From a virus: a DNA stretch of 20,102 nt. Each line of letters begins with the position of its first letter. The stretch's first letter is position 1. The notes under the pieces are model-generated. The model worked only from the letters and a program-made list of their open reading frames with translations, did not search any database and was not told the DNA's origin. Positions 1,740 through 17,589 of the stretch are shown in pieces. The stretch lies in IMG/VR virus record IMGVR_UViG_3300033145_002484, positions 1 to 20,102 of that record; one strand, 5' to 3'. The translations under genes and the position numbers were made by a program.

Positions 1740-2687
1740 TTAAGATGCCTGGTCTATGAGCACGATTGCGTCATAAGTTGAACTGGTCATGTGTTGTAGT
1801 CTGAAATCTACACTCTCATAAGCGTAGTAGTTCATCGCATCTGATGCTGGGTCTGCGTCGGGTGTTACTTTGAACTGACGTCTGTCACCTATGATAGCTT
1901 CAGATTTAGGTATCAATATCGCACAAGCTTTATTACTACCCTGTCCTTGACCAAAAACTTTAGGTAACTCGCCTTTTCTAATAACCTCGGCACTACCGTA
2001 CATATTATCTCTTAGAGATTTATCCCTTCTCATATAATCACAAAAATCAGGTGAACCGATTAATACTAGGTCCCCTTTATTTCTGCCATATACTCCCAGT
2101 TCTTTAATAGCTGAACTAAGACAATCTGCAACAGCATAAGCCGTTGCAGGATTATATGTAACCGCAGTAGTGGTTGAATGGTCAGCTGCTATAGTGTAGA
2201 GTCCTAAGAAAACTGATAGCAAAGCAGTCTTTGTTCTATCTCTCTCAACACCTAATAACATAGCCCTCTCTTCAGCCCTACCAAAAGCTATAGCGAAATT
2301 CTGAAGTAACAAATCAATAACATCAACAGAAGAATCATTAATATCATCAATCTGAAGAGCTCCTTTAGCCGCTAATTTGCCCGGTTCTAAAAGAATACTA
2401 CCCACTGATGGTGCTGTATTAGATAGGCCACTCGGTGCGTAACCTGTCTTTGCCTGTAAGACGCCTGAGTAATCTAAGGTAACTGTAGGGATAGTTAATG
2501 TTCTCGCAGGAACTTTTATAGTACGAAAAATCTTGCGCATCCAATTAGTTTCCTCAATAACTCTAATCATCTCATCAGCAATAGGTTTCGGTAACAATCC
2601 CGTAGCCTGCGCTGAACCTTCAGTTTCCACTGCATCTGGAACTAGTAATCCCTTTAAGACTTTTAGTTTGAGTTCTTTATTTAGCAT
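1740..2687 (-). CDS. Major capsid protein, HK97 fold
   Basis: This 315-residue protein has the layout of HK97-type major capsid proteins. A short leader is followed by TGLLPKPIADEMIRVIEET and a beta-rich N-arm/E-loop region with repeated small residues (VPARTLTIPTVTLDYSG, then KTGYAPSGLSNTAPSVGS). A spine helix follows (LLLQNFAIAFGRAEERAML, about 128-146). After that come an A-domain with GDLVLIGSPDFCDYMRRD and a C-terminal strand ending in YDAIVLIDQAS. Only about 25 residues precede the predicted fold, so there is no HK97-type 100-residue delta domain and scaffolding must come from another protein. The gene directly follows the prohead protease, the classical order. It has the best ribosome binding site here (AGGAGGTG, 7 nt before the ATG) and a strong terminator downstream, both consistent with very high expression. 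Confidence 0.88.
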   Translation of the reverse strand: MLNKELKLKVLKGLLVPDAVETEGSAQATGLLPKPIADEMIRVIEETNWMRKIFRTIKVPARTLTIPTVTLDYSGVLQAKTGYAPSGLSNTAPSVGSILLEPGKLAAKGALQIDDINDSSVDVIDLLLQNFAIAFGRAEERAMLLGVERDRTKTALLSVFLGLYTIAADHSTTTAVTYNPATAYAVADCLSSAIKELGVYGRNKGDLVLIGSPDFCDYMRRDKSLRDNMYGSAEVIRKGELPKVFGQGQGSNKACAILIPKSEAIIGDRRQFKVTPDADPASDAMNYYAYESVDFRLQHMTSSTYDAIVLIDQAS

Positions 2688-2728: not shown

Positions 2729-5116
2729 TTATTTAATCATACTTAATTTATATTGTTTTTTAACCTCTTCTTGAATATCTTCAGGTAATGATGCAAATAA
2801 TGTTTCATCGTTTATAACCTGAGATAGTGTTTTACCTTCAAGCTTTTTAACCACTTCATTGTCTACATCTTCTTCCTTTTCCTCTGCCTGAACTCCTTTT
2901 CTTGTAGCTGCCTCTTCTTTAACTTCAGGCTTCTTTTCCTCTACAACATCTTCCTTTTTATCTTCAACTACTTCTTCTTTCTTCTCTTCCGGTTTTTCTT
3001 CTTTCTTTTCTTCCTTGACTTCTACTGTTTCCTCTTCCACTTTCTTGGTTGTTAAAGCATCTGCTAAAGATTTAATCGCCTCTAAAATAGCATCTAACTT
3101 AACATTAAATTTTTTAACCAATCCGACTTCTTCTTCAGAAGTTTTAGTTACCAAATCTTCTGTTTTCTCCTCCTTGACCTCTTTAACTCCAGGATTTTCT
3201 TCCTTAATCTCTTCCTTGACTTCTTCTTTCTTTTGTGATTTTTCTTTAGCCACTTTTTCCCCCTCATTTTCTTTTTTAATTACAGGTATCTTTTTTACAG
3301 AAATTTCCTCTACATATTTCTTCTTATCCCCGATAGAAGATATTAATTCTCTGGTCTTTTTGACCTTATCTAAAGATTTTACCAAATCATCGATTATAAT
3401 ATCTTCTCGATTATCGTCTGAAGCTAATAGTATACTGTATATAATCACTTCCTTTAAATGAGCTCCGGTTAGTCCATCGGATTCTTTTGCTATTCTTTCT
3501 AAAATACTTTCTCTGTCCACTATATTTTGATTTTTAGCATGTATATTTAAAATTTTGTATCTCAAATCCTCATCTGGCAAATCAAATTTTATAATATCAT
3601 CAAATCTACTCGGTCTATCAATTAAAGCTTTTGGAATATTTTCAGGATAGTTAGTACATAATATTGTAACTACACCTTCATTAGAGTCCAATCCATCCAT
3701 TTGTCCCTTAATGGCATCAATTGCGCCCGATGTTTCTAAATAATTATCTATGTCCTCTGCAAAAATAATAGACGGTGCTAATTCCTTCGCCATATCTAAA
3801 ATATATTTAAAATAAGATGAATCCGCATATCTACCAAAATAATCTGCTGTAACCCAAATAAATGTACTGTCAGAATTCGACATTAAAACTTTACCCGTTA
3901 ATGTTTTACCCGTGCCAGGCTCACCTGCAAAAATAAATCCTCTCTTAAATGGAATATTATTTTTTAAATATGTTTCTTTCTTCTTAAAAAATTCTAAAGC
4001 CCCTAGTTTTATTGCTTTCTTTTTATCAACTGGTATTTGCAACATTTCAAAGTCTGTATTAATATAATCTAAAAAATGACCCTTCGGTGTAATTTTTTGA
4101 TTCTTATAAAAATTATGCTCTCTCATCCAGGTGTCAAACTGCTTTGCATATTCTACAGCTAATTCAGAATCTTCAGATTTATAATAAATATCAGTTGCAA
4201 AATCCCACATTCTTGGATAAATATTTACTATTAATCGGCTCTTTCCCTGTTTTAAAAACATAAAGCCATTTACTAGCAACTCTTCTTTTTTATTTCTACC
4301 TGTTTCTAAAAATGAATATACTGGACGTGTTGGACTACCACTATATGTAAAATCAACCACCCTTGTGATATCCCAACCAGATGAGGTTATCTCCTTTAAG
4401 GCTTTTGAAACAAGGGCCATTTTAAAATAAGGATAATTTTTAGTAAGTACCTTTTGATTATAGGCGGGTATTCCTAAAAAATTATCAATACTGATAGTAT
4501 TTCTTTTTATTAGTGCAATATCTTTAGCGGTTTTATTATATTTATCTATTTCTTTAACATCTACTACAAGTTTTTCTATGATATCCGGGTTTTTATAGCT
4601 TAATGTGTCTTTTCCTGCTTCTTTTAAGGCTTTTCTGATATAATCTGTTACTTTAGCTTCTGCATTAGCGGGCACGCCTACTAGAGATACTTCAAATAAT
4701 TCTAAATCTAAAACTCTTGCGGCTTCCTTTCCTAAATCAGGTGCCGGTTCCATTTCTAAAATTCTTCCACCTATAGAAAACCTATTTAAAATACCCTCTT
4801 CTATAAGGGTACGTATATCAGGTTGTGTTTTTGAAATATATGCTTCAATAAATAATCCAACTTCATCTACTTTACTCTTTACTACTCTTCCAATAGGTTT
4901 ACCGTAATTATGGTCAAAGAATAAAGTACTATTTTTAACTAAGTGGTCTTCAACCTTTTTAAGAGCTTCCCAAGTAATCAATTCATCTTGTCTATCTAAA
5001 TCAGGCGTAGAAGCATAACCTCTTACATAAAACTTTTCATCTGTTTTACCCTGACCCTTTGATAAACTACCGAATTCTAATTTATTAGTAAAAAATTCAA
5101 ATTTAACCGGTTCCAT
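2729..5116 (-). CDS. Prohead protease (S78/XkdF-like) fused to AAA+ ATPase and acidic scaffold-like tail
   Basis: This is a 795-residue, three-part protein. Residues 28-165 form an HK97-type prohead serine protease: FYVRGYAST, FFDHNYGKPIGRV with candidate catalytic His69, NRFSIGGRI with candidate nucleophile Ser113, and FEVSLVGVPANAEA. Residues 170-385 are a linker of unknown family. Residues 386-590 are a full AAA+ module: Walker A GEPGTGKT (398-405), Walker B IIFAEDID (450-457), sensor-1 TNYP (488-491), arginine-finger region DRPSRFD (500-506) and sensor-2 GLTGAHLKEV. Residues 600-755 are low-complexity Glu/Lys sequence, and the last 40 residues form a separate amphipathic segment. The start is placed at the ATG at 5116, 5 nt after GGGAG. 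An upstream in-frame TTG at 5128 lies on the 5' side of that site. The capsid gene follows 41 bases later. Role: head maturation. The ATPase role is inferred. Confidence 0.88.
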   Translation of the reverse strand: MEPVKFEFFTNKLEFGSLSKGQGKTDEKFYVRGYASTPDLDRQDELITWEALKKVEDHLVKNSTLFFDHNYGKPIGRVVKSKVDEVGLFIEAYISKTQPDIRTLIEEGILNRFSIGGRILEMEPAPDLGKEAARVLDLELFEVSLVGVPANAEAKVTDYIRKALKEAGKDTLSYKNPDIIEKLVVDVKEIDKYNKTAKDIALIKRNTISIDNFLGIPAYNQKVLTKNYPYFKMALVSKALKEITSSGWDITRVVDFTYSGSPTRPVYSFLETGRNKKEELLVNGFMFLKQGKSRLIVNIYPRMWDFATDIYYKSEDSELAVEYAKQFDTWMREHNFYKNQKITPKGHFLDYINTDFEMLQIPVDKKKAIKLGALEFFKKKETYLKNNIPFKRGFIFAGEPGTGKTLTGKVLMSNSDSTFIWVTADYFGRYADSSYFKYILDMAKELAPSIIFAEDIDNYLETSGAIDAIKGQMDGLDSNEGVVTILCTNYPENIPKALIDRPSRFDDIIKFDLPDEDLRYKILNIHAKNQNIVDRESILERIAKESDGLTGAHLKEVIIYSILLASDDNREDIIIDDLVKSLDKVKKTRELISSIGDKKKYVEEISVKKIPVIKKENEGEKVAKEKSQKKEEVKEEIKEENPGVKEVKEEKTEDLVTKTSEEEVGLVKKFNVKLDAILEAIKSLADALTTKKVEEETVEVKEEKKEEKPEEKKEEVVEDKKEDVVEEKKPEVKEEAATRKGVQAEEKEEDVDNEVVKKLEGKTLSQVINDETLFASLPEDIQEEVKKQYKLSMIK

Positions 5117-5188
5117 TTTTTCTCCCAATAGTTGACTATAAATATCCTTAAAGTAAAGAAACTATATACGCTTACTTTTTTTATCTTT

Positions 5189-6064
5189 TTATATCCCTAT
5201 TTTTAATATATCACCTTTGAATAAGGTATCTACTTTTATTGTTGTTCCTTTCAGAGTACCCTGTATTTTATAATGTTTAAATGTACCTAAGAAATAAATA
5301 TGCTTTATCCCATAATCTTTAAATTCTTTTAATGTGTTATATATTGATTTATGGTCTTGATAGAGTTCTTTCTTTTTATAACCACCATCAATAATTAATA
5401 CATCTATTCCTTTTAAATATTCCATCGATTTTTTAGGGATTCTATGACACGGTGATATATAAGCTACTTTTTTATTAAATATAAATCCCAAACAATCATC
5501 TCCGTATATTTCCTGGACTTGATGCTTTATTATAATTGGCATTACTTCTAAACCTTCAATTTCTACATTCTTATATTCTTTAATAAGAGTTGTATTATAT
5601 TTTTGGTCATATCCTTTTACATGATAATCTAAAAAGTGAAGATGTTTTTGAGTATCTAAGACATACAGATTTTTTACTTTTGCCTTATCCATTCCTTCTA
5701 AATTGATGCTGTGACAATGTGTTAATAATAAATTATCTACTTCTATATCTTTTTCAACTTTAGGGGCATTAATTAAAATAGAATCATTAATTAAAATAGA
5801 GGGTTCACTTTTTTGAATATTATGATTAATTATTTTTACTATTAAAGATTTATTACCCTTAGAATTTTTACCTACCATAGAAGAACCACAATCAGGACAC
5901 GCAGTTTTAGCACAAGGTGTTCCCTTAACGTGGGATATTTCTTTACCACAATCTGGACATACACATTTACTAGCGCCACCGTCACCTTGGCGGGAACCCC
6001 CCTGACCTTGTCCATCACCTCTACCTTTATTCATAATTTCTTCTTGTTCTTTAGACACTAGCAT
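5189..6064 (-). CDS. Zinc-ribbon plus degenerate metallo-beta-lactamase-fold protein
   Basis: This 291-residue protein opens with a Gly/Gln/Asp-rich stretch (GRGDGQGQGGSRQGDGG). A zinc ribbon at about 34-59 follows, with Cys at 34, 36, 39, 51, 56 and 59 (CVCPDCG then CPDCG). From about 72 on it resembles a PhnP-like metallo-beta-lactamase fold: LLLTHCHSINLEG (114-124), a later His181, YISPCHRIPKKSMEYLKGIDVLI, an Asp226 strand (IIDGG), and a final FLGTFKH. The canonical HxHxDH motif is reduced to HCHSIN, so the second-metal ligands are missing. The enzyme may bind one metal or be inactive. The ATG overlaps the preceding stop (TAATG). A second start at residue 11 would give the usual ribbon N-terminus. 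It sits just upstream of the head protease, but a role in assembly is only inferred from position. Confidence 0.65.
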   Translation of the reverse strand: MLVSKEQEEIMNKGRGDGQGQGGSRQGDGGASKCVCPDCGKEISHVKGTPCAKTACPDCGSSMVGKNSKGNKSLIVKIINHNIQKSEPSILINDSILINAPKVEKDIEVDNLLLTHCHSINLEGMDKAKVKNLYVLDTQKHLHFLDYHVKGYDQKYNTTLIKEYKNVEIEGLEVMPIIIKHQVQEIYGDDCLGFIFNKKVAYISPCHRIPKKSMEYLKGIDVLIIDGGYKKKELYQDHKSIYNTLKEFKDYGIKHIYFLGTFKHYKIQGTLKGTTIKVDTLFKGDILKIGI

Positions 6065-6540: not shown

Positions 6541-9500
6541 TTAAGCTGCTTCGTACCAAAATTCACCACGAACATCTTTAGTTCCACTTGCTGTCCACGC
6601 ACCATCGGCTGCATCTGGAAAGGAATAAACCTGTGCAGTATTGGCTGGCATAGCAAAAGTTGCAATGCCGTTTATTCTTGCCCCATTGTCCATAGCGTAA
6701 GGGTGAATTCCATTAAATTCAACTGTTGTATTAGCTGCGGTGTAAGGAAGTGTAAAAGTAACAGTGCCTGCATTACTTACACCTGTTAATTTGAAAGCAA
6801 CAAATACTAAGTTACCGACCTTTTTATACATTATAACTTTAGTTGTAAAACTTGACCAACCAATTACAGTAGATGTTCCACTGTAATCTGTCCAAGCTGC
6901 GGTATATAAATCACCAGAAACTATAACATCACCAGCAATATCTACATTACCGTCTTTATCTACCGCAAATTTTTCTACACTATTTACTCCACAATTAATA
7001 AAATCTCCACCAAATCCAGTTTGCATATCGGCATGAAACGCAACTGCTCCTGCATTAACTGAATCTCCTGTAACCTGAATACCTTCCATTGCTTCATCAG
7101 CAGCACCAATATCAATTCTTAAAAGTTTAGATGCGCCTGATTGGGTATCTGAAATCATTAAATTAACTAATGCAGCAGAGTTTATATTATTCGCACCAGA
7201 AATCGACATTCCAGTTCCGCCAACACCTTTTTGACGAATATGTAATGCACTCCCCCAAGGTTGTGTATCAGCATCCCAATCTCCACCTTGAGCATTTTCG
7301 TTAATTAATATTATTCCAGAATTAAACCCTGCTCCTACGTTATTTTGTATAATCGCTTCCATTAAACATGTATTTGCTGCTGAATCTGTATTTTCAGTAT
7401 CTAAATTAATTAAACAAGTTTCACTATCTGCATTTCCATCTACTACTATTGTTAAACCATCTCCAGATTTTCCAGAAATACTATCCCCCCAAACTAGACC
7501 TACTTCATTATCATCAACATATTTTTTAGTTGCAGCGTCTTGGTTATCTACGGGGTCAACAACTCCTGTGATTTTATGAGTGTTCATATCTAAATTTTCT
7601 GCTTGAGCACCTAATGCTGTATCTGTTCCTTGTGTATGTTTTTTTGTAACTGCGTCTTCAATATCGGCTCCAGCCGATGTAATATCTGATAAAACATTAA
7701 CAGTGTCAGTCTTCTTAACAAAGGTCGCTTCAAATGTTGTGTCTAAATCGGTATCACTATTTTGTGTATGTTTTGCTAATGTATTTGCTACAATTTCATC
7801 CCATTTATCAGCACCAAGTAAACCAGCAACGTCTGTAGTTGCTTCTGGTAATACAATGTCATCCACACCACCATCTGAAGTAATTCCATATGTGGTAGCA
7901 TTAACTGTTCCAGCTTCTAATGTCGTAGAAACATTTGTATCCTTTGCTGTATTTAAACCAATTGCAGTTAACATTGTTTCTATTTGGTCTCTAATAGCAT
8001 TCTTTGTAGCTGCATCAGAATTAGCATCCCAACTGTCTACATTATAAGCTGTGTCATCGGTTGCTACATTACTTACATTATTTAAACTTAAATCAGTTTT
8101 TGTTTCTGCAATAGTTCTAATAGCATAAGTATCTTCTGCTGTTATTTTAATGAAGGAATCGGTAACATAACCTAAGGCAGCTAAACTATCTAATCCATTA
8201 TCGTGTGCTTGTACATCGGTTCCAATAATAAGACTTAATTCTGTCGGTGTTACGCTATGCGGATTTCCAGAACCTACCTGCGAGTGTGAATAAGCAGTTT
8301 CAAAATTAGTCTCTTGTGTTAATGTTATAATTGCATTTGTAGAACCATCAACTATTGAATCAGCATCTATACTATCACCGTTATTCCATTGTGTAGTTCC
8401 AATAGTAAAATTCTGTCCTGTAGGTAATGTCAAAGAACCACTTGCACCTAATGTTACATCATCCATCCATTGTGTTAATTCATCATGTTCTGCTTGTGTT
8501 AAATGTTGATAATCTCCACTATCTAATCCTGCAAGGTCATTATGATTAGTAACTAAATTAAAAGATTCTTCACTTATTCCAGCTCTTATATCTTGCCATG
8601 TTGTATTTGTAAAATCTGTATTATTTGAATTATAAACTATTGCGGTTAATTTTGGGGCTATAGCTAATCCAGTAGGTATTTGAGGTAAAGCTGCATCTAA
8701 AGCTTGTGCCTTATTATTAAAATACTCTGTAGGATAAATCCAACCTATTTTACCATTCATAAAAATAAAATAAGATTTAACCCATTTATTTGAGGGTAAG
8801 GCTTCTAACCCTTGTCCACCAGCTTTATCTGGATTATCATAATTAGCCATGTCAACTTCATCATCAGTATCATAATCTAATACACCTGCTGTGTGAAAAT
8901 GTCTTACTAATGCAGTATCATGCGACTTAATTTCCGATGGTGTTTTTCTTTCAATACCATCCTTATATACTACTCCAGCACTCATTATAACATCTAAATC
9001 TGCTGGAGGGTCATAAACATTAGTATCTTCACTAATAACCATTCCGCTAATTATTCTTGTTGGAAATGATTCTCTTAAAGCTCTTCGAGTATTTGCTATT
9101 GTTTCGTTCATTAATGATGTTTCTCTATAAGCATTTACAACATTGTCATAAACAGTAAATTTCGCTATTAAAACTTCATCACCAGAGGCATCATCTGTAG
9201 AAATAGTAAGTGCAGTTCCACTTACCCATTTAAGATAATTAACTTGATTATCAGATACATTTCCACTTCCTGAATCCGTAGCAACAAATAAAGTATTAGC
9301 TTCATCATAAAGTTCACCTGAAGTCCAACTAATTCCAAGACCGCCTGTTAATGATACTGTGATAGTAGAAACCACCCCTCTATTAAGTATATGATTAAAG
9401 GTATCTAAAACAGTATGTCCATTATGGTCAGGAATGCTGCTTGAATCAACTTGATTAGCTCCACTTCCCCAATCTATTAATGTTTCATCAATTCCATTAG

Positions 9501-12500
9501 CTTTTATTTGTAAATTATTTCCATCTAATCCAAAATGATTACTGTCATAATTAAATGTTATTTCTTGTGTAGATAATGTTAATGGTGCTCCCGCAACTGT
9601 AACTGCTGGATGTAATTCAGCGTATTCTGCTGCTGATAAATGTAAATAATCCCCTTCATTTAAGTTAGACAACGAATTATGCGCATAGGATGTAAGGTCC
9701 GTAATATCGATTGCGTGGGGATTCCCTACTACAATCTGACTATGTGAATAAGCCGTTTCAAAATGTGTTTCCTGGGTAGATGTAATTAAAACCAATCCCC
9801 CACCATCAGTTAAATTATCAATTCCGAAAACAGGAGTAGCACCGCTTACAACACTTTGGTCTATATAACTATGGTCAACACCACTAGAGGTTCTATGGGT
9901 AGTATTTAAACCTATTGCAGTGTCCTGGGTTCCACCGTCATGTTTCTTATCAACTGCATCTTTAACATTAGCAACTGTAACTTCATTTACTCCACCATCA
10001 TCTAATTTTTGGTCTGTGCCTTGGGTATGGTCGCTTGCATCGCTATGTTTTAGGTCTATAGCACTTTCTAAATTTACTTCGGTTATTTTAGTTGTTGCTC
10101 TTATTGAATCCCCGTTTGCACTCGGTACTGCTAATGAAACTATTTTATGGGAATTCATATCGAGATTTTCTGCTTGGGCACCCAATGCTGTGTCCGAACC
10201 TTGAGTGTGTTTCTTAGTAACAGCGTCTTCTATATCAGCACCTGCAGAGGTGATATCATGTAAAGCGTTTATATCTATAGAATTTAAAGCAGTAGTCACA
10301 TTAGTGATATCAGTAATATCGGCTGATTCTTCTATAGTATCTAACTTTATACCATCTACGGAAATATCTCTACCGTCTATTTTAAATCCTTCATCTACGG
10401 GTAAATTACTTTTTAGTGTTCCGTTATTAAATATATTAGTGGAGGATATTTCTACATAAACCTTAAAATAAAAATCATAATCATGATACGCTGCCCAATT
10501 TTCTGCACCTTTATCAGCATAAACATAAGCACCATCAGCGTAGGCATCTGTATCATTGTCATTATCAATCATATATTTATCAGAATCTATGGTGCGAAGT
10601 ACAACAGCATATAAAGTGCCACTTACAACAGCAGTGGGTGCAGCGAATTCAATAACTTTATTAGTCCATGTTTGATTACTTGTAATCTCAGAAGCTTGCA
10701 TTGTATATGTTGCTAAAACGCTTGCCGTAGGTAATCCGGCACTTGTTTCTCTAATTTCAATAATCAGAGGGTCTGTAGAATTATCTTTATATAAACGTAA
10801 TTCAATTTTTGTTAAATCACCGGTTTGTCCAGCCATGAAAGTTTGTCCAGCATCATAACTATTATTAGTATAAACGCTATAATTACCATTAGTAATCTCT
10901 TGCTGCTGGTCTAATAATTCCCCCTCTCCTTTTAATATTGTATCAGTATCTCGTGTATGTAATTCTGCAAACTCGGCAGCTGTTAGATGCATGTAATCAC
11001 CGACATTTAAATCGGATAAATCATTGTGAGTAAAATCAGATGATACTTGGTCATCAGAACCACTTGCATGTCTTTTTGTAACAGCATCTTCAATGTCAGC
11101 ACCCGGTGAGGTGATGTCAGAGAGTACACTTATTATATCTAGTTTTTTAACAAAGGTTGCTTCAAAGGTTGCATCTAAATCTGTGTCTGAATTTTGAGCA
11201 TGTTTTTTTGTTACTGCATCAGATACATTAGTCGAGGTTAATAAAGAATCTTTGATTAATTTACCTGTTATACCATCAAAGGCTACTAGATTACTATCTA
11301 CAGCGGAAGCACAGCCTATTACAGCACCGTCTAAATTCGTTTGTATAATATTCCAATAAGCTCCTACGGTAGCTTGGTCACCCGATGCCGTACTATCAGT
11401 ATTACACAGTACTAAATCACCTACTTCAACATTTATTCCAGAAGCTCCACCAATCTTTCCAGCCACACTAATTCTGTATGTATGACCTGCATCTGCAGCA
11501 GGGTAATTAGGATTACCACTTGCATCGATGACTCCTTTATAAACCATAGCATCTTGTGCTGCTATTAAGGCATCAATATAAGTTTTTGCTGCTTTTTGTG
11601 AAGGAACTTTTACATCGGAATCTGCTGCTAAAGTAACATCTGTATCTAAATAAGTTAATGGCATTTGCTGAACATTATCTACATTATTTAAACTTAAATC
11701 TGACTTTGTTTCAGCTATTGTTCTGACTCCGTAAACATTTTCTGCCGTCATTTTAATAAATGAATCGGTTACATAAGTTAATCCTGCGATACTTGATAAC
11801 GCTTCATCATAGGCTTGTACATCTGTGCCAATAACTAAAGATAATTCAGTAGGAGTCACACTGTGGGGGTTTCCTGATGTCAGACCCCTATGCGTTGTGT
11901 TTAAACCAATTGCAGTATCTTGTGTACCACCGTCGTGTTTTTTAGAAACAGCATCTTCAATATCAGCTCCTGCTGAGGTAATATCCGACAATACATTTAC
12001 AGTATCTACTTTTTTGACAAAAGTTGCTTCGAAAGTTGCATCTAAATCTGTATCGGTATTTTGGGTATGGTCTAAAGCATTAGAGTGTTTTAATGAAATT
12101 GCAGAAGCTATATCAACATCACTTTTTACTTCAGTTAATGTTAAGTCTGATTTAGAATCCCATGTTGATTTTTCTGAATCGGTAACTAATCTATGTGTAG
12201 AATCATCACTTAATTCAGATAATGCTGTTGGAATAGTAGGTTTATTTAATATTTTACTATCACCAGATACCGCATCCCAATCACTTTGTACGTTTACTTC
12301 TGCACCTGCTTCTATTGCATCTAGTTTCGATTTATCTCCTGTGGCAAAATTAGCTGCTTCCGAGGCTAAAAATATTGGGTCTGTCTCAACTGTAAGATAT
12401 CCCGCTAAGGCGTGGTCCCCCCAACCGTAAGCCGTGTCCCAATTAGTTGAATTCGCTATTAAAGCGTTTACTTCCGTTTGCGTATACTTATCAAGGTCAG

Positions 12501-13095
12501 TAATTTGGGCTTCTGTATGAGTATGAACCACTGCTGCCTTCGCATCCAGCGCCAATTGTAAATCTATTTGGTTAGAAAGTGTTCCCGTGATAGCTCCCCA
12601 TGTTCCTGCTCCACCACTCTCATCTTTGCATTCCCACTTACTAGTAGCAGAATTATATTTTAAAATTTTATCATTAGCAATTAAAGTAACATCTACATCA
12701 GATAGTTCTGCTATAGAGCCTTTCCCAATTGCAGCGATTAAAGCATCTACTTCTACTTGTGTATATTTATCTAAATCTGTGATATTTGATTCGGTGTGTG
12801 TGTGTATTAAAGCTGCTTTTACATCTAAAGCATTTTGTAAATCAGTTTGGTCGTCTAGGGTTCCTGTAATACTTCCCCAAATAGCACTTGTTGGATATTC
12901 GGCTACTTCCCATTTCTTAGTACTTAGATTATATTGTAATAAGTTACCATCAACTAACCCTGTCAAATCAACATCTGTTAAATCTGACATTGCAGTTGAG
13001 CCATCTGCTGAAATTGCTACGGCTATTATTTCCTCGGTAGTTTGAACCTGTATTCCTTCTTCTTCTACTATTTCTACATTAATATCATCTGACAT
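6541..13095 (-). CDS. Giant repetitive tail fibre / receptor-binding protein
   Basis: This 2184-residue protein is about a third of the window. It is built of phage tail-fibre repeats rich in Asp, Thr, Ser and Ala, with short signatures such as HTHTEAQITDLDKYTQTEV, LSDITSAGADIEDAV, VPSQKAAKTYIDA and DAATKKYVDDN, typical of trimeric fibres. A non-repeat insert around residues 715-880 (AGQTFMAGQTGDLTKIELRL onward) looks like a carbohydrate-binding beta-sandwich. Another around 1180-1500 contains TRRALRESFPTRIISGMVI and is of unknown type. The last 130 residues (from about DIAGDVIVSGDLYTAAW) form a distinct beta-rich tip, probably the receptor-binding head. The ATG overlaps the BppU-like stop as TAATG, with AAGGAG upstream. 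There is no frameshift over 6.5 kb. No chaperone or lectin-like accessory gene is evident immediately downstream. Confidence 0.9.
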   Translation of the reverse strand: MSDDINVEIVEEEGIQVQTTEEIIAVAISADGSTAMSDLTDVDLTGLVDGNLLQYNLSTKKWEVAEYPTSAIWGSITGTLDDQTDLQNALDVKAALIHTHTESNITDLDKYTQVEVDALIAAIGKGSIAELSDVDVTLIANDKILKYNSATSKWECKDESGGAGTWGAITGTLSNQIDLQLALDAKAAVVHTHTEAQITDLDKYTQTEVNALIANSTNWDTAYGWGDHALAGYLTVETDPIFLASEAANFATGDKSKLDAIEAGAEVNVQSDWDAVSGDSKILNKPTIPTALSELSDDSTHRLVTDSEKSTWDSKSDLTLTEVKSDVDIASAISLKHSNALDHTQNTDTDLDATFEATFVKKVDTVNVLSDITSAGADIEDAVSKKHDGGTQDTAIGLNTTHRGLTSGNPHSVTPTELSLVIGTDVQAYDEALSSIAGLTYVTDSFIKMTAENVYGVRTIAETKSDLSLNNVDNVQQMPLTYLDTDVTLAADSDVKVPSQKAAKTYIDALIAAQDAMVYKGVIDASGNPNYPAADAGHTYRISVAGKIGGASGINVEVGDLVLCNTDSTASGDQATVGAYWNIIQTNLDGAVIGCASAVDSNLVAFDGITGKLIKDSLLTSTNVSDAVTKKHAQNSDTDLDATFEATFVKKLDIISVLSDITSPGADIEDAVTKRHASGSDDQVSSDFTHNDLSDLNVGDYMHLTAAEFAELHTRDTDTILKGEGELLDQQQEITNGNYSVYTNNSYDAGQTFMAGQTGDLTKIELRLYKDNSTDPLIIEIRETSAGLPTASVLATYTMQASEITSNQTWTNKVIEFAAPTAVVSGTLYAVVLRTIDSDKYMIDNDNDTDAYADGAYVYADKGAENWAAYHDYDFYFKVYVEISSTNIFNNGTLKSNLPVDEGFKIDGRDISVDGIKLDTIEESADITDITNVTTALNSIDINALHDITSAGADIEDAVTKKHTQGSDTALGAQAENLDMNSHKIVSLAVPSANGDSIRATTKITEVNLESAIDLKHSDASDHTQGTDQKLDDGGVNEVTVANVKDAVDKKHDGGTQDTAIGLNTTHRTSSGVDHSYIDQSVVSGATPVFGIDNLTDGGGLVLITSTQETHFETAYSHSQIVVGNPHAIDITDLTSYAHNSLSNLNEGDYLHLSAAEYAELHPAVTVAGAPLTLSTQEITFNYDSNHFGLDGNNLQIKANGIDETLIDWGSGANQVDSSSIPDHNGHTVLDTFNHILNRGVVSTITVSLTGGLGISWTSGELYDEANTLFVATDSGSGNVSDNQVNYLKWVSGTALTISTDDASGDEVLIAKFTVYDNVVNAYRETSLMNETIANTRRALRESFPTRIISGMVISEDTNVYDPPADLDVIMSAGVVYKDGIERKTPSEIKSHDTALVRHFHTAGVLDYDTDDEVDMANYDNPDKAGGQGLEALPSNKWVKSYFIFMNGKIGWIYPTEYFNNKAQALDAALPQIPTGLAIAPKLTAIVYNSNNTDFTNTTWQDIRAGISEESFNLVTNHNDLAGLDSGDYQHLTQAEHDELTQWMDDVTLGASGSLTLPTGQNFTIGTTQWNNGDSIDADSIVDGSTNAIITLTQETNFETAYSHSQVGSGNPHSVTPTELSLIIGTDVQAHDNGLDSLAALGYVTDSFIKITAEDTYAIRTIAETKTDLSLNNVSNVATDDTAYNVDSWDANSDAATKNAIRDQIETMLTAIGLNTAKDTNVSTTLEAGTVNATTYGITSDGGVDDIVLPEATTDVAGLLGADKWDEIVANTLAKHTQNSDTDLDTTFEATFVKKTDTVNVLSDITSAGADIEDAVTKKHTQGTDTALGAQAENLDMNTHKITGVVDPVDNQDAATKKYVDDNEVGLVWGDSISGKSGDGLTIVVDGNADSETCLINLDTENTDSAANTCLMEAIIQNNVGAGFNSGIILINENAQGGDWDADTQPWGSALHIRQKGVGGTGMSISGANNINSAALVNLMISDTQSGASKLLRIDIGAADEAMEGIQVTGDSVNAGAVAFHADMQTGFGGDFINCGVNSVEKFAVDKDGNVDIAGDVIVSGDLYTAAWTDYSGTSTVIGWSSFTTKVIMYKKVGNLVFVAFKLTGVSNAGTVTFTLPYTAANTTVEFNGIHPYAMDNGARINGIATFAMPANTAQVYSFPDAADGAWTASGTKDVRGEFWYEAA
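8061..8270 (-). repeat. Fibre long repeat, copy 2
   Basis: About 70 residues running from GNPHSVTPTELSLIIGTDV through YVTDSFIKITAE to RTIAETKTDLSLNNVSNV. It is the near-identical partner of the copy at about 11675-11877, more than 3.5 kb away in the same gene. Boundaries are approximate. Confidence 0.75.
11675..11877 (-). repeat. Fibre long repeat, copy 1
   Basis: GNPHSVTPTELSLVIGTDV through YVTDSFIKMTAE to RTIAETKSDLSLNNVDNV, matching the copy at about 8061-8270. Shorter dispersed motifs (SDITSxGADIEDAV) recur near 7640-7690, 10210-10262, 11075-11125 and 11945-11990. Confidence 0.75.
12457..12981 (-). repeat. Tandem ~84-residue duplication at fibre N-terminus
   Basis: Two consecutive units (about residues 39-120 and 131-213) share the same order of motifs. 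Each has an L(T/S)DVD start, a K(Y/W) strand ending in KWE, WG(S/A)ITGTL, DLQxALDxKAA, HTHTE, ITDLDKYTQ and EV(D/N)ALIA. The protein match is high while the DNA has diverged (third positions differ), so the duplication is not recent. Confidence 0.8.
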
Positions 13096-16536: not shown

Positions 16537-16828
16537 TTTCCCTCACCTTAGATTTAGGTTTGCCCTTGACGACCCAAATTAAAATGTCTTTAAGTAAACT
16601 AGAACTTCCTTTGTTTTTAACCATATCCTCAAATACTTTATCGATGTTAAGATTCATAATATCTGTTTGAATCCTCTTACGCTCACTACTTAAAATGTGA
16701 TAGAATAGATTATTTAAACTTGTGACCCACCTCATTTTAAGACACAGCTTACACTCATTAAGTAATGCTTTACAATCGCCGCATATTATTTTTTTAATTT
16801 CTTCTACTACGTTTTTTCTTTTTTCCAC
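16490..16828 (-). CDS. Cys-containing helical hypothetical protein
   Basis: This 112-residue protein starts at GTG 16828 (AAGGA about 8 nt upstream) inside the end of the ClpP-like gene, a 35-base overlap. It has an N-terminal CGDCKALLNECKLC cluster that could hold one zinc ion. A hydrophobic helical region follows (LLKDILIWVVKG), then a charged tail. No family was recognised. The overlap with the protease suggests coupled expression. Confidence 0.6.
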   Translation of the reverse strand: MEKRKNVVEEIKKIICGDCKALLNECKLCLKMRWVTSLNNLFYHILSSERKRIQTDIMNLNIDKVFEDMVKNKGSSSLLKDILIWVVKGKPKSKVRENEESIKDKKEIRPSS

Positions 16829-17393
16829 TTTTCAATTCCTTACCTAGTATGACTTTTCTTTTATCAATAATACCTGTTGCAATATTGTACTTAATAGCCT
16901 CTTCCGTAGTTAGCCAAATATCTGTAGCAGGTAATAATTTTTCCTTAATAACTTTTTCAGGTAACCCTATACGTTCTTTATAATACCTTACTAATCTCAT
17001 ATAAAGTAAATCCTGCTCTTTTCTCACTCCTTTTAATTCATGATGTTTACCAAACGTATACCAAAAATATTGATGACTTAATATTGCAGTATTCTTTGTG
17101 ATAAACCTGTGGTTGCCCGCTAAAAATAAAAGTAAGCCACAACTACATATTTCCCCAAAGCCGATTGTGTTTACATTTAATCGCATATTATCAATTATGT
17201 CTAATACCCCAAAACAAGCGGACACATCCCCTCCGGGTGAATTTATCTCTAAGGTAATATTATCTCTAAAATTCAAATCTGTATCTAATTTGATTAACTT
17301 TTCAGCTAATATTTGCATAGATTCTTGTGTAACATCACCCGTAAAATAAATTATCCCCTTATTTAATAACTCCTCTCTTATGCGATTAATCAT
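16794..17393 (-). CDS. ClpP-like (S14) serine protease
   Basis: This 199-residue protein has the ClpP/crotonase-like protease signature. EINSPGGDV (49-57) is the substrate-binding loop. GEICSCGLLLFLAG aligns with the ClpP nucleophile loop and keeps Ser84. AILSHQYF keeps His107. ATDIWLTTEEAIKYNI keeps Asp158. The catalytic triad is therefore intact. A strongly basic tail (SGKKKKRSRRN) extends past the fold. The start is taken at ATG 17393 because AGGAG lies 7 nt upstream; an in-frame ATG at 17417 lacks a site. ClpP-like proteases act as head-maturation enzymes in some phages, but an S78 protease is also present here. Its role could be capsid processing, effector maturation or host-protein turnover. 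Confidence 0.85.
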   Translation of the reverse strand: MINRIREELLNKGIIYFTGDVTQESMQILAEKLIKLDTDLNFRDNITLEINSPGGDVSACFGVLDIIDNMRLNVNTIGFGEICSCGLLLFLAGNHRFITKNTAILSHQYFWYTFGKHHELKGVRKEQDLLYMRLVRYYKERIGLPEKVIKEKLLPATDIWLTTEEAIKYNIATGIIDKRKVILGKELKSGKKKKRSRRN

Positions 17394-17397
17394 CTTA

Positions 17398-17589
17398 TTA
17401 CTCCTGTTTAGTAACATCTAACCAAAAATGATTAGGGTGTTTTTTAAGTTTATCGTCTGTTAAAATTAGTGAACTGCGTTGAAATTTTATAAATAATGAT
17501 TCGCTACATCTATAAATAGAAGGATGTTTAGAATCCTGGCAAAAATGATTTTTACATCTATCATCACGTATAATTTTTATTTGAAACAT
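17398..17589 (-). CDS. Small Cys/His hypothetical protein
   Basis: This 63-residue protein has a CKNHFCQDSKH cluster near residue 12 and an isolated Cys later, possibly a single metal site. It has a good GAGGAG ribosome binding site. Its stop lies 4 nt before the preferred ClpP-like ATG. Unknown function. Confidence 0.55.
   Translation of the reverse strand: MFQIKIIRDDRCKNHFCQDSKHPSIYRCSESLFIKFQRSSLILTDDKLKKHPNHFWLDVTKQE

Follow-up and report, generated by a model that had tools for sequence, protein, structure and literature searches.

Up to the start of packaging, the procapsids of tailed viruses are commonly regarded as assembling and maturing by proteolysis without a dedicated ATPase, host or phage chaperonins apart, and the S78 prohead proteases of HK97-type phages work without one. 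HK97 packs about 60 copies of its protease (PMC12749128), and a C-terminal propeptide has been proposed to target the SPN3US protease to the prohead (PMC7411985). AAA ATPases have nevertheless been tied to virion assembly. BCS1-like and MoxR ATPases of jumbo phages were proposed as virion-assembly chaperones by context alone, with a MoxR cochaperone fused to a peptidase domain and BCS1 suggested to handle folded head cargo (PMC7824862), and p618, a MoxR-type AAA+ ATPase of the archaeal virus ATV, is found in virions and has been assigned a role in virion development (PMC4124505).

The window analyzed here is a DNA stretch of 20,102 nucleotides from an uncultured tailed virus (IMG/VR record IMGVR_UViG_3300033145_002484). 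One frame on its minus strand, opening with an ATG at 5116, closing with a stop at 2731-2729 and containing no internal stops, encodes an S78 protease-scaffold that is interrupted, after the S78 domain and ahead of the acidic tail, by an AAA module of about 430 residues (Table 1). The order of parts is thus S78 prohead protease, N-domain with classical AAA ATPase, acidic Glu/Lys stretch and conserved C-terminal motif. In its His, Ser and Glu residues, its acidic tail and the HK97-type capsid gene directly downstream, which follows the fusion in relatives as well, the protein resembles the S78 prohead proteases with scaffold tails (PHROG 80); the usual protease-scaffold differs in having no AAA module between the two. 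Both enzymatic halves were recovered by profile searches. The Pfam Peptidase_S78 model matched residues 27-159 (numbered from the ATG) with 46.6 bits against a curated cut-off of 21, the PHROG 80 head maturation protease matched with E=3e-26, and the Pfam AAA model matched with E=2e-18 (67.6 bits against a cut-off of 21.2). A preliminary description of this DNA had placed the 795-residue frame correctly, directly before the capsid gene, leaving its strand unstated. It had also read S78 motifs, an AAA+ module and a Glu/Lys-rich tail from the letters. His69 and EVSLVGVPAN (residues 142-151) stood, while the serine, which lies in the motif FSIGG, is residue 114 and not 113; GEPGTGKT, IIFAEDID, TNYP (within CTNYP, residues 487-491) and DRPSRFD are all present; and the tail proved as charged as described, with 44 E+D and 32 K+R among the 135 residues 601-735.

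Table 1. Coordinates of features in the window (aa, residues of the fusion protein).
Feature	Position	Strand	Basis or remark
S78-AAA-scaffold fusion gene	2729..5116	minus	795 codons + stop; homologous fusions in other contigs
Ribosome-binding site GGGAG of fusion gene	5122..5126	minus	sequence
S78 prohead protease domain, aa 25-165	4622..5044	minus	Pfam PF04586 E=5e-12; alignment
S78 residues His69, Ser114, Glu142	4910-4912, 4775-4777, 4691-4693	minus	invariant in 4/4 full fusions aligned
N-domain of ATPase module, helix + alpha/beta, aa 167-352	4061..4618	minus	AlphaFold2 model, pLDDT 85
Classical AAA ATPase core + lid, aa 353-600	3317..4060	minus	Pfam PF00004; Foldseek PDB
Walker A GEPGTGKT, aa 398-405	3902..3925	minus	motif; 16/16 alignment rows
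Tyr430	3827..3829	minus	aligns with Tyr of the Cdc48 D2 WYG pore loop (HMMER alignment)
Walker B IIFAEDID, aa 450-457	3746..3769	minus	acidic pair ED, canonical DE
DRPSRFD, putative arginine fingers, aa 500-506	3599..3619	minus	motif
Scaffold-like acidic stretch rich in Glu and Lys, aa 601-735; holds helix motif EDLVTKTSEEEVGLV	2912..3316	minus	
Conserved C-terminal motif RKG...KKLEGKT...IQEEVKKQYK, aa 736-795	2732..2911	minus	also in ATPase-less relatives
Stretch differing between window and L021, 1.6 kb, holding the ATPase module	3014..4609	minus	blastn: identity ends at 4610, restarts at 3013
HK97-type major capsid protein	1740..2687	minus	Pfam PF05065 Phage_capsid E=9e-11; next gene downstream of fusion
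Metallo-beta-lactamase-fold gene with N-terminal zinc ribbon	5189..6064	minus	upstream neighbor in window, L008 and L021

The search for homologues revealed S78-AAA fusions in five further distinct viruses (L008, L046=L047=L048, L052, L058 and L061). An independent 10-kb contig, L008, has the same gene order and a fusion 59% identical to that of the window, with an additional zinc ribbon in its tail. A capsid-based scan yielded a second fusion group (L046, L047 and L048, together with L052), and a scan with the ATPase brought in L058, L061 and L078. Since independent contigs carry the same fusion, and since L046, L047 and L048, from three metagenomes, hold an identical fused frame of 844 residues, an assembly join of two genes is ruled out. 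L078 also has a fused ATPase, but the N-terminal part of its fusion is unassigned; this part stands at the site of the protease, between portal and capsid, and its profile comparison with S78 gave a probability of 1.7%. The arrangement was judged unusual in the preliminary description, and our searches agree: no annotated phage searched has it, the genome-contig scan returned generic AAA proteins only, and no fusion of a prohead protease with an AAA ATPase appeared in the literature searched, a coverage that excludes most subscription journals. AAA chaperones for phage assembly have been proposed before; a prohead protease-scaffold with an internal AAA module was not encountered in the literature and annotated phages searched. 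The jumbo-phage BCS1-like and MoxR ATPases resemble the window ATPase in being tied by context to virion assembly; however, they are separate genes, whereas the ATPases of the window's clade are fused into, or lie directly beside, the S78 protease-scaffold gene. ATV p618 is unlike the window ATPase in acting in tail development, in being of the MoxR type and in lacking a protease fusion. As a separate observation, a metallo-beta-lactamase-like frame and the S78-AAA frame of L052 (2827-5955) are continuous, with 1043 codons open and no intervening stop.

The ATPase also occurs unfused. Eight viruses (L059, L062, L063, L064, L065, L082, L115 and L117) encode it as a separate gene upstream of the S78-scaffold and capsid genes, overlapping or near S78 in six of the eight and set apart from it by an HNH-type gene in L082 and L117. 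Because the separate gene lies upstream, but the ATPase follows S78 inside the fusions, the fusion arose by insertion and not by end-to-end joining of neighbors. The ATPase clade (at least 43% identical to the window) comprises 15 distinct members: six S78 fusions (the window included), L078 and the eight separate genes. All 15 lie in a protease-capsid head module. The clade is monophyletic (support 99/98), with the separate-gene members nested within it at 99/99. Distant homologues at 34% identity or less (L084-L086 and isolates including Littlefix and KPP25) are not beside S78, and none of the isolate homologues examined is in a head module.

Near relatives show that the ATPase may be missing altogether. 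L021 shares about 80% DNA identity with the window on both flanks, and 93% (S78) and 91% (capsid) protein identity, with no ATPase in the stretch corresponding to window positions 3014..4609; 39 of 57 residues of the C-terminal motif are identical between the two. L045, L049 and L053 have no ATPase and are sisters of the fused L046 in the S78 tree (98/89). The 106-kb contig L112, whose capsid protein is 87% identical and whose upstream gene is that of L062, holds no ATPase anywhere, with positive controls recovered in the same search; nor was an ATPase found elsewhere in other ATPase-less contigs. All these contigs may be fragments of their viruses, so the absence holds for the contigs. Even so, the ATPase has been repeatedly gained or lost beside almost unchanged protease and capsid genes. 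Such turnover would be expected of a mobile passenger, an ATPase without head function that is kept for some other role in infection and sits here by chance insertion, and zinc-ribbon cassettes likewise move between neighboring genes. This explanation must however accommodate that all 15 clade members keep to the head module, whether as fusions or as neighbors, across viruses with no more than 40-45% identity between their capsid proteins, and that distant homologues are located elsewhere; we consider it quite improbable.

Because close relatives manage without it, the ATPase would be an accessory helper of head assembly and not an essential motor. That a head can be built without it fits packaged cargo equally well: the ATPase could be an internal head protein that enters the procapsid with the protease-scaffold, is cut free and is delivered to the next host. 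The model here is T4: its prohead protease cuts the internal proteins, which are then ejected (PMC7411985). Together with Alt, these exemplify head proteins delivered to the host. An accessory and patchy ATPase, fused to a protein that is expected to enter the prohead, accords with such a fate, as does the occupation of the same region in relatives by other modules, namely zinc ribbons, a beta-rich domain and GARGG-type segments. Pure cargo, though, need not stay beside S78, and in at least eight viruses a separate ATPase gene without a visible targeting tail still does. We rate delivery as cargo, the chief rival of the reading preferred below, as rather unlikely. Other observations concern the protease-scaffold genes of relatives. 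A GARGGVDIPDAD-type segment occupies the site of the ATPase in L050 and L055. The ATPase-less gene of L021 (803-1930) contains a frameshift within a KPEEKKED repeat, either real or an assembly error. In L005 (7353-8669), one frame holds ClpP-like and S78 domains (Pfam CLP_protease 19-183, S78 234-348), and in L002, L003 and L031 the gene ahead of the capsid gene continues past S78 with a second module, by eye possibly Mu gpI-like, and then an acidic Glu/Lys tail.

The predicted structure provides clues to the kind of ATPase involved. A good AlphaFold2 monomer model of residues 167-600 (pLDDT 85), derived from 16 sequences, shows, besides a long helix, an alpha/beta N-domain plus an AAA core with its lid; a full-length model from a four-sequence alignment was poor (pLDDT 45) and was set aside. 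Foldseek placed Bacillus subtilis YjoB (7w42) first in the PDB, aligned over both N-domain and AAA (E=3.5e-19, TMq 0.54, rmsd 7.6, 405 columns), with PAN, FtsH and the proteasomal ATPases ranked behind it; to YjoB and BCS1 alike the match is one of fold only. In VIA-align, however, YjoB was tied with these three (Z 21, 347 residues aligned), its Z being no higher than that of the proteasomal ATPases, and YjoB and BCS1 differ from the window ATPase in that identity is about 19% and the N-domain is unmatched by sequence. Since this N-domain found no sequence relative in the PDB, and since no trans-membrane helix of the kind that BCS1 possesses is seen in the window protein (the top 19-residue hydropathy, 1.18, falls within the S78 domain), the modeled ATPase is best described as YjoB/BCS1-like in fold and not as a member of BCS1. 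The BCS1 model was likewise absent from the Pfam matches of every fusion scanned. Standalone phage AAA proteins, Littlefix gp69, KPP25 ORF048 and cr10_1 (PHROGs 10440, 30773 and 3757), are homologous in the AAA core, and in Littlefix gp69 homology also reaches part of the N-domain; they differ in being only about 26-31% identical, unfused and outside the head module.

The motifs of a classical AAA domain are all present: Walker A, Walker B and, with its putative arginine fingers, the second region of homology. Both Walker motifs and RPSRFD, the arginine-finger motif, are intact in 13 of 13 aligned clade members. The acidic pair of Walker B reads ED in all 16 alignment rows, distant relatives included. 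BCS1 probably carries the same pair. The ATPase is under purifying selection. Four separate-gene ATPases gave dN/dS of about 0.12-0.16; for the ATPase core of the window against L008 the value was about 0.09, which is indicative only, as dS was saturated. The AAA core was about 67% identical in comparisons of groups with capsid proteins 40-45% identical. The pore-loop position is aromatic (Tyr or Trp) in most head-module members, and in L065 it is a His with an adjoining Tyr.

This aromatic residue bears on the proposal of the preliminary description that the protein may serve capsid maturation in cis, in the manner of Lon or FtsH, as an ATP-driven unfoldase that feeds the S78 protease on its own chain and is needed for maturation. 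As in Lon and FtsH, protease and AAA share one chain, and the best-scoring PDB sequence relatives of the ATPase are VCP/Cdc48, PAN and FtsH. Nevertheless, this is the reading we favor least, and we consider it very improbable, because the ATPase partner is both separable, being encoded on its own in at least eight viruses, and dispensable, being absent beside near-identical S78 and capsid genes and from the whole L112 contig. ATPase-less relatives with capsid proteins 87-91% identical, together with the separate-gene viruses, indicate that maturation can proceed without the ATPase and that the ATPase does not have to be in cis. Moreover, the S78 proteases of HK97-type phages do without an ATPase, the pore loop is short in most members, and the peptidase of Lon and FtsH is unrelated to S78 and stands in the reverse domain order. 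Pfam and PHROG searches found no Lon- or FtsH-type peptidase in the fusion, S78 being its sole protease domain. The proposal is accordingly unsupported, while the prohead packing and self-cleavage also envisaged in that description are plausible. A ClpP-like protease gene elsewhere in the window (16794-17417, minus strand; Pfam E=5e-26) was considered as a partner of the ATPase and found unsupported: ClpP-like genes turn up in three related contigs whether or not the ATPase accompanies them, so in ATPase-less relatives too, and several fused fragments lack them.

The reading we prefer, and to which we give about even credence, is that the ATPase is a BCS1/YjoB-like AAA chaperone that plays an accessory part in assembly and is tethered to the protease-scaffold. 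The invariable head-module location, the monophyly of the clade, the conservation of motifs, the low dN/dS and the YjoB-like fold all count for it, as does the earlier proposal of such chaperones for jumbo phages. As proposed for the SPN3US propeptide, the C-terminal tail would target the fusion protein to the procapsid as it assembles, and the occurrence of the C-terminal motif in ATPase-less relatives, which also share the EDLVTKTSEEEVGLV helix motif, fits a targeting or scaffold element. A YjoB/BCS1-like AAA ring might then remodel, or help to deliver, scaffold, capsid or other head proteins, after which the protease may free or destroy the ATPase during maturation; a separately encoded ATPase would do the same job in trans. 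More specifically, and only tentatively, since we rate it as rather unlikely, the AAA ring of a transient scaffold-protease may spend ATP, inside the procapsid or at it, on remodeling subunits of the scaffold or capsid. If this were true, procapsid assembly or maturation would in these viruses be energy-driven before DNA packaging. The fused, split and deleted versions in close relatives offer a direct handle on the question whether head assembly involves AAA chaperones.

Several minor features of the neighborhood deserve mention. No tRNA was found in the search for host clues. A 2184-residue protein with phage tail repeats is encoded at 6541-13095 of the window (minus strand), and RecA-like, SbcC-like and DNA polymerase-like frames were recognized by eye in related contigs. 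Finally, a zinc-ribbon cassette (GDGQGxGG...CxCPxCG...CPxCG) recurs in differing neighboring genes: in the window it belongs to the metallo-beta-lactamase-fold gene, but in relatives to protease-scaffold tails, and its sites comprise the window, L008 (2009-4681), L023, L025, L058, L078 and L112.
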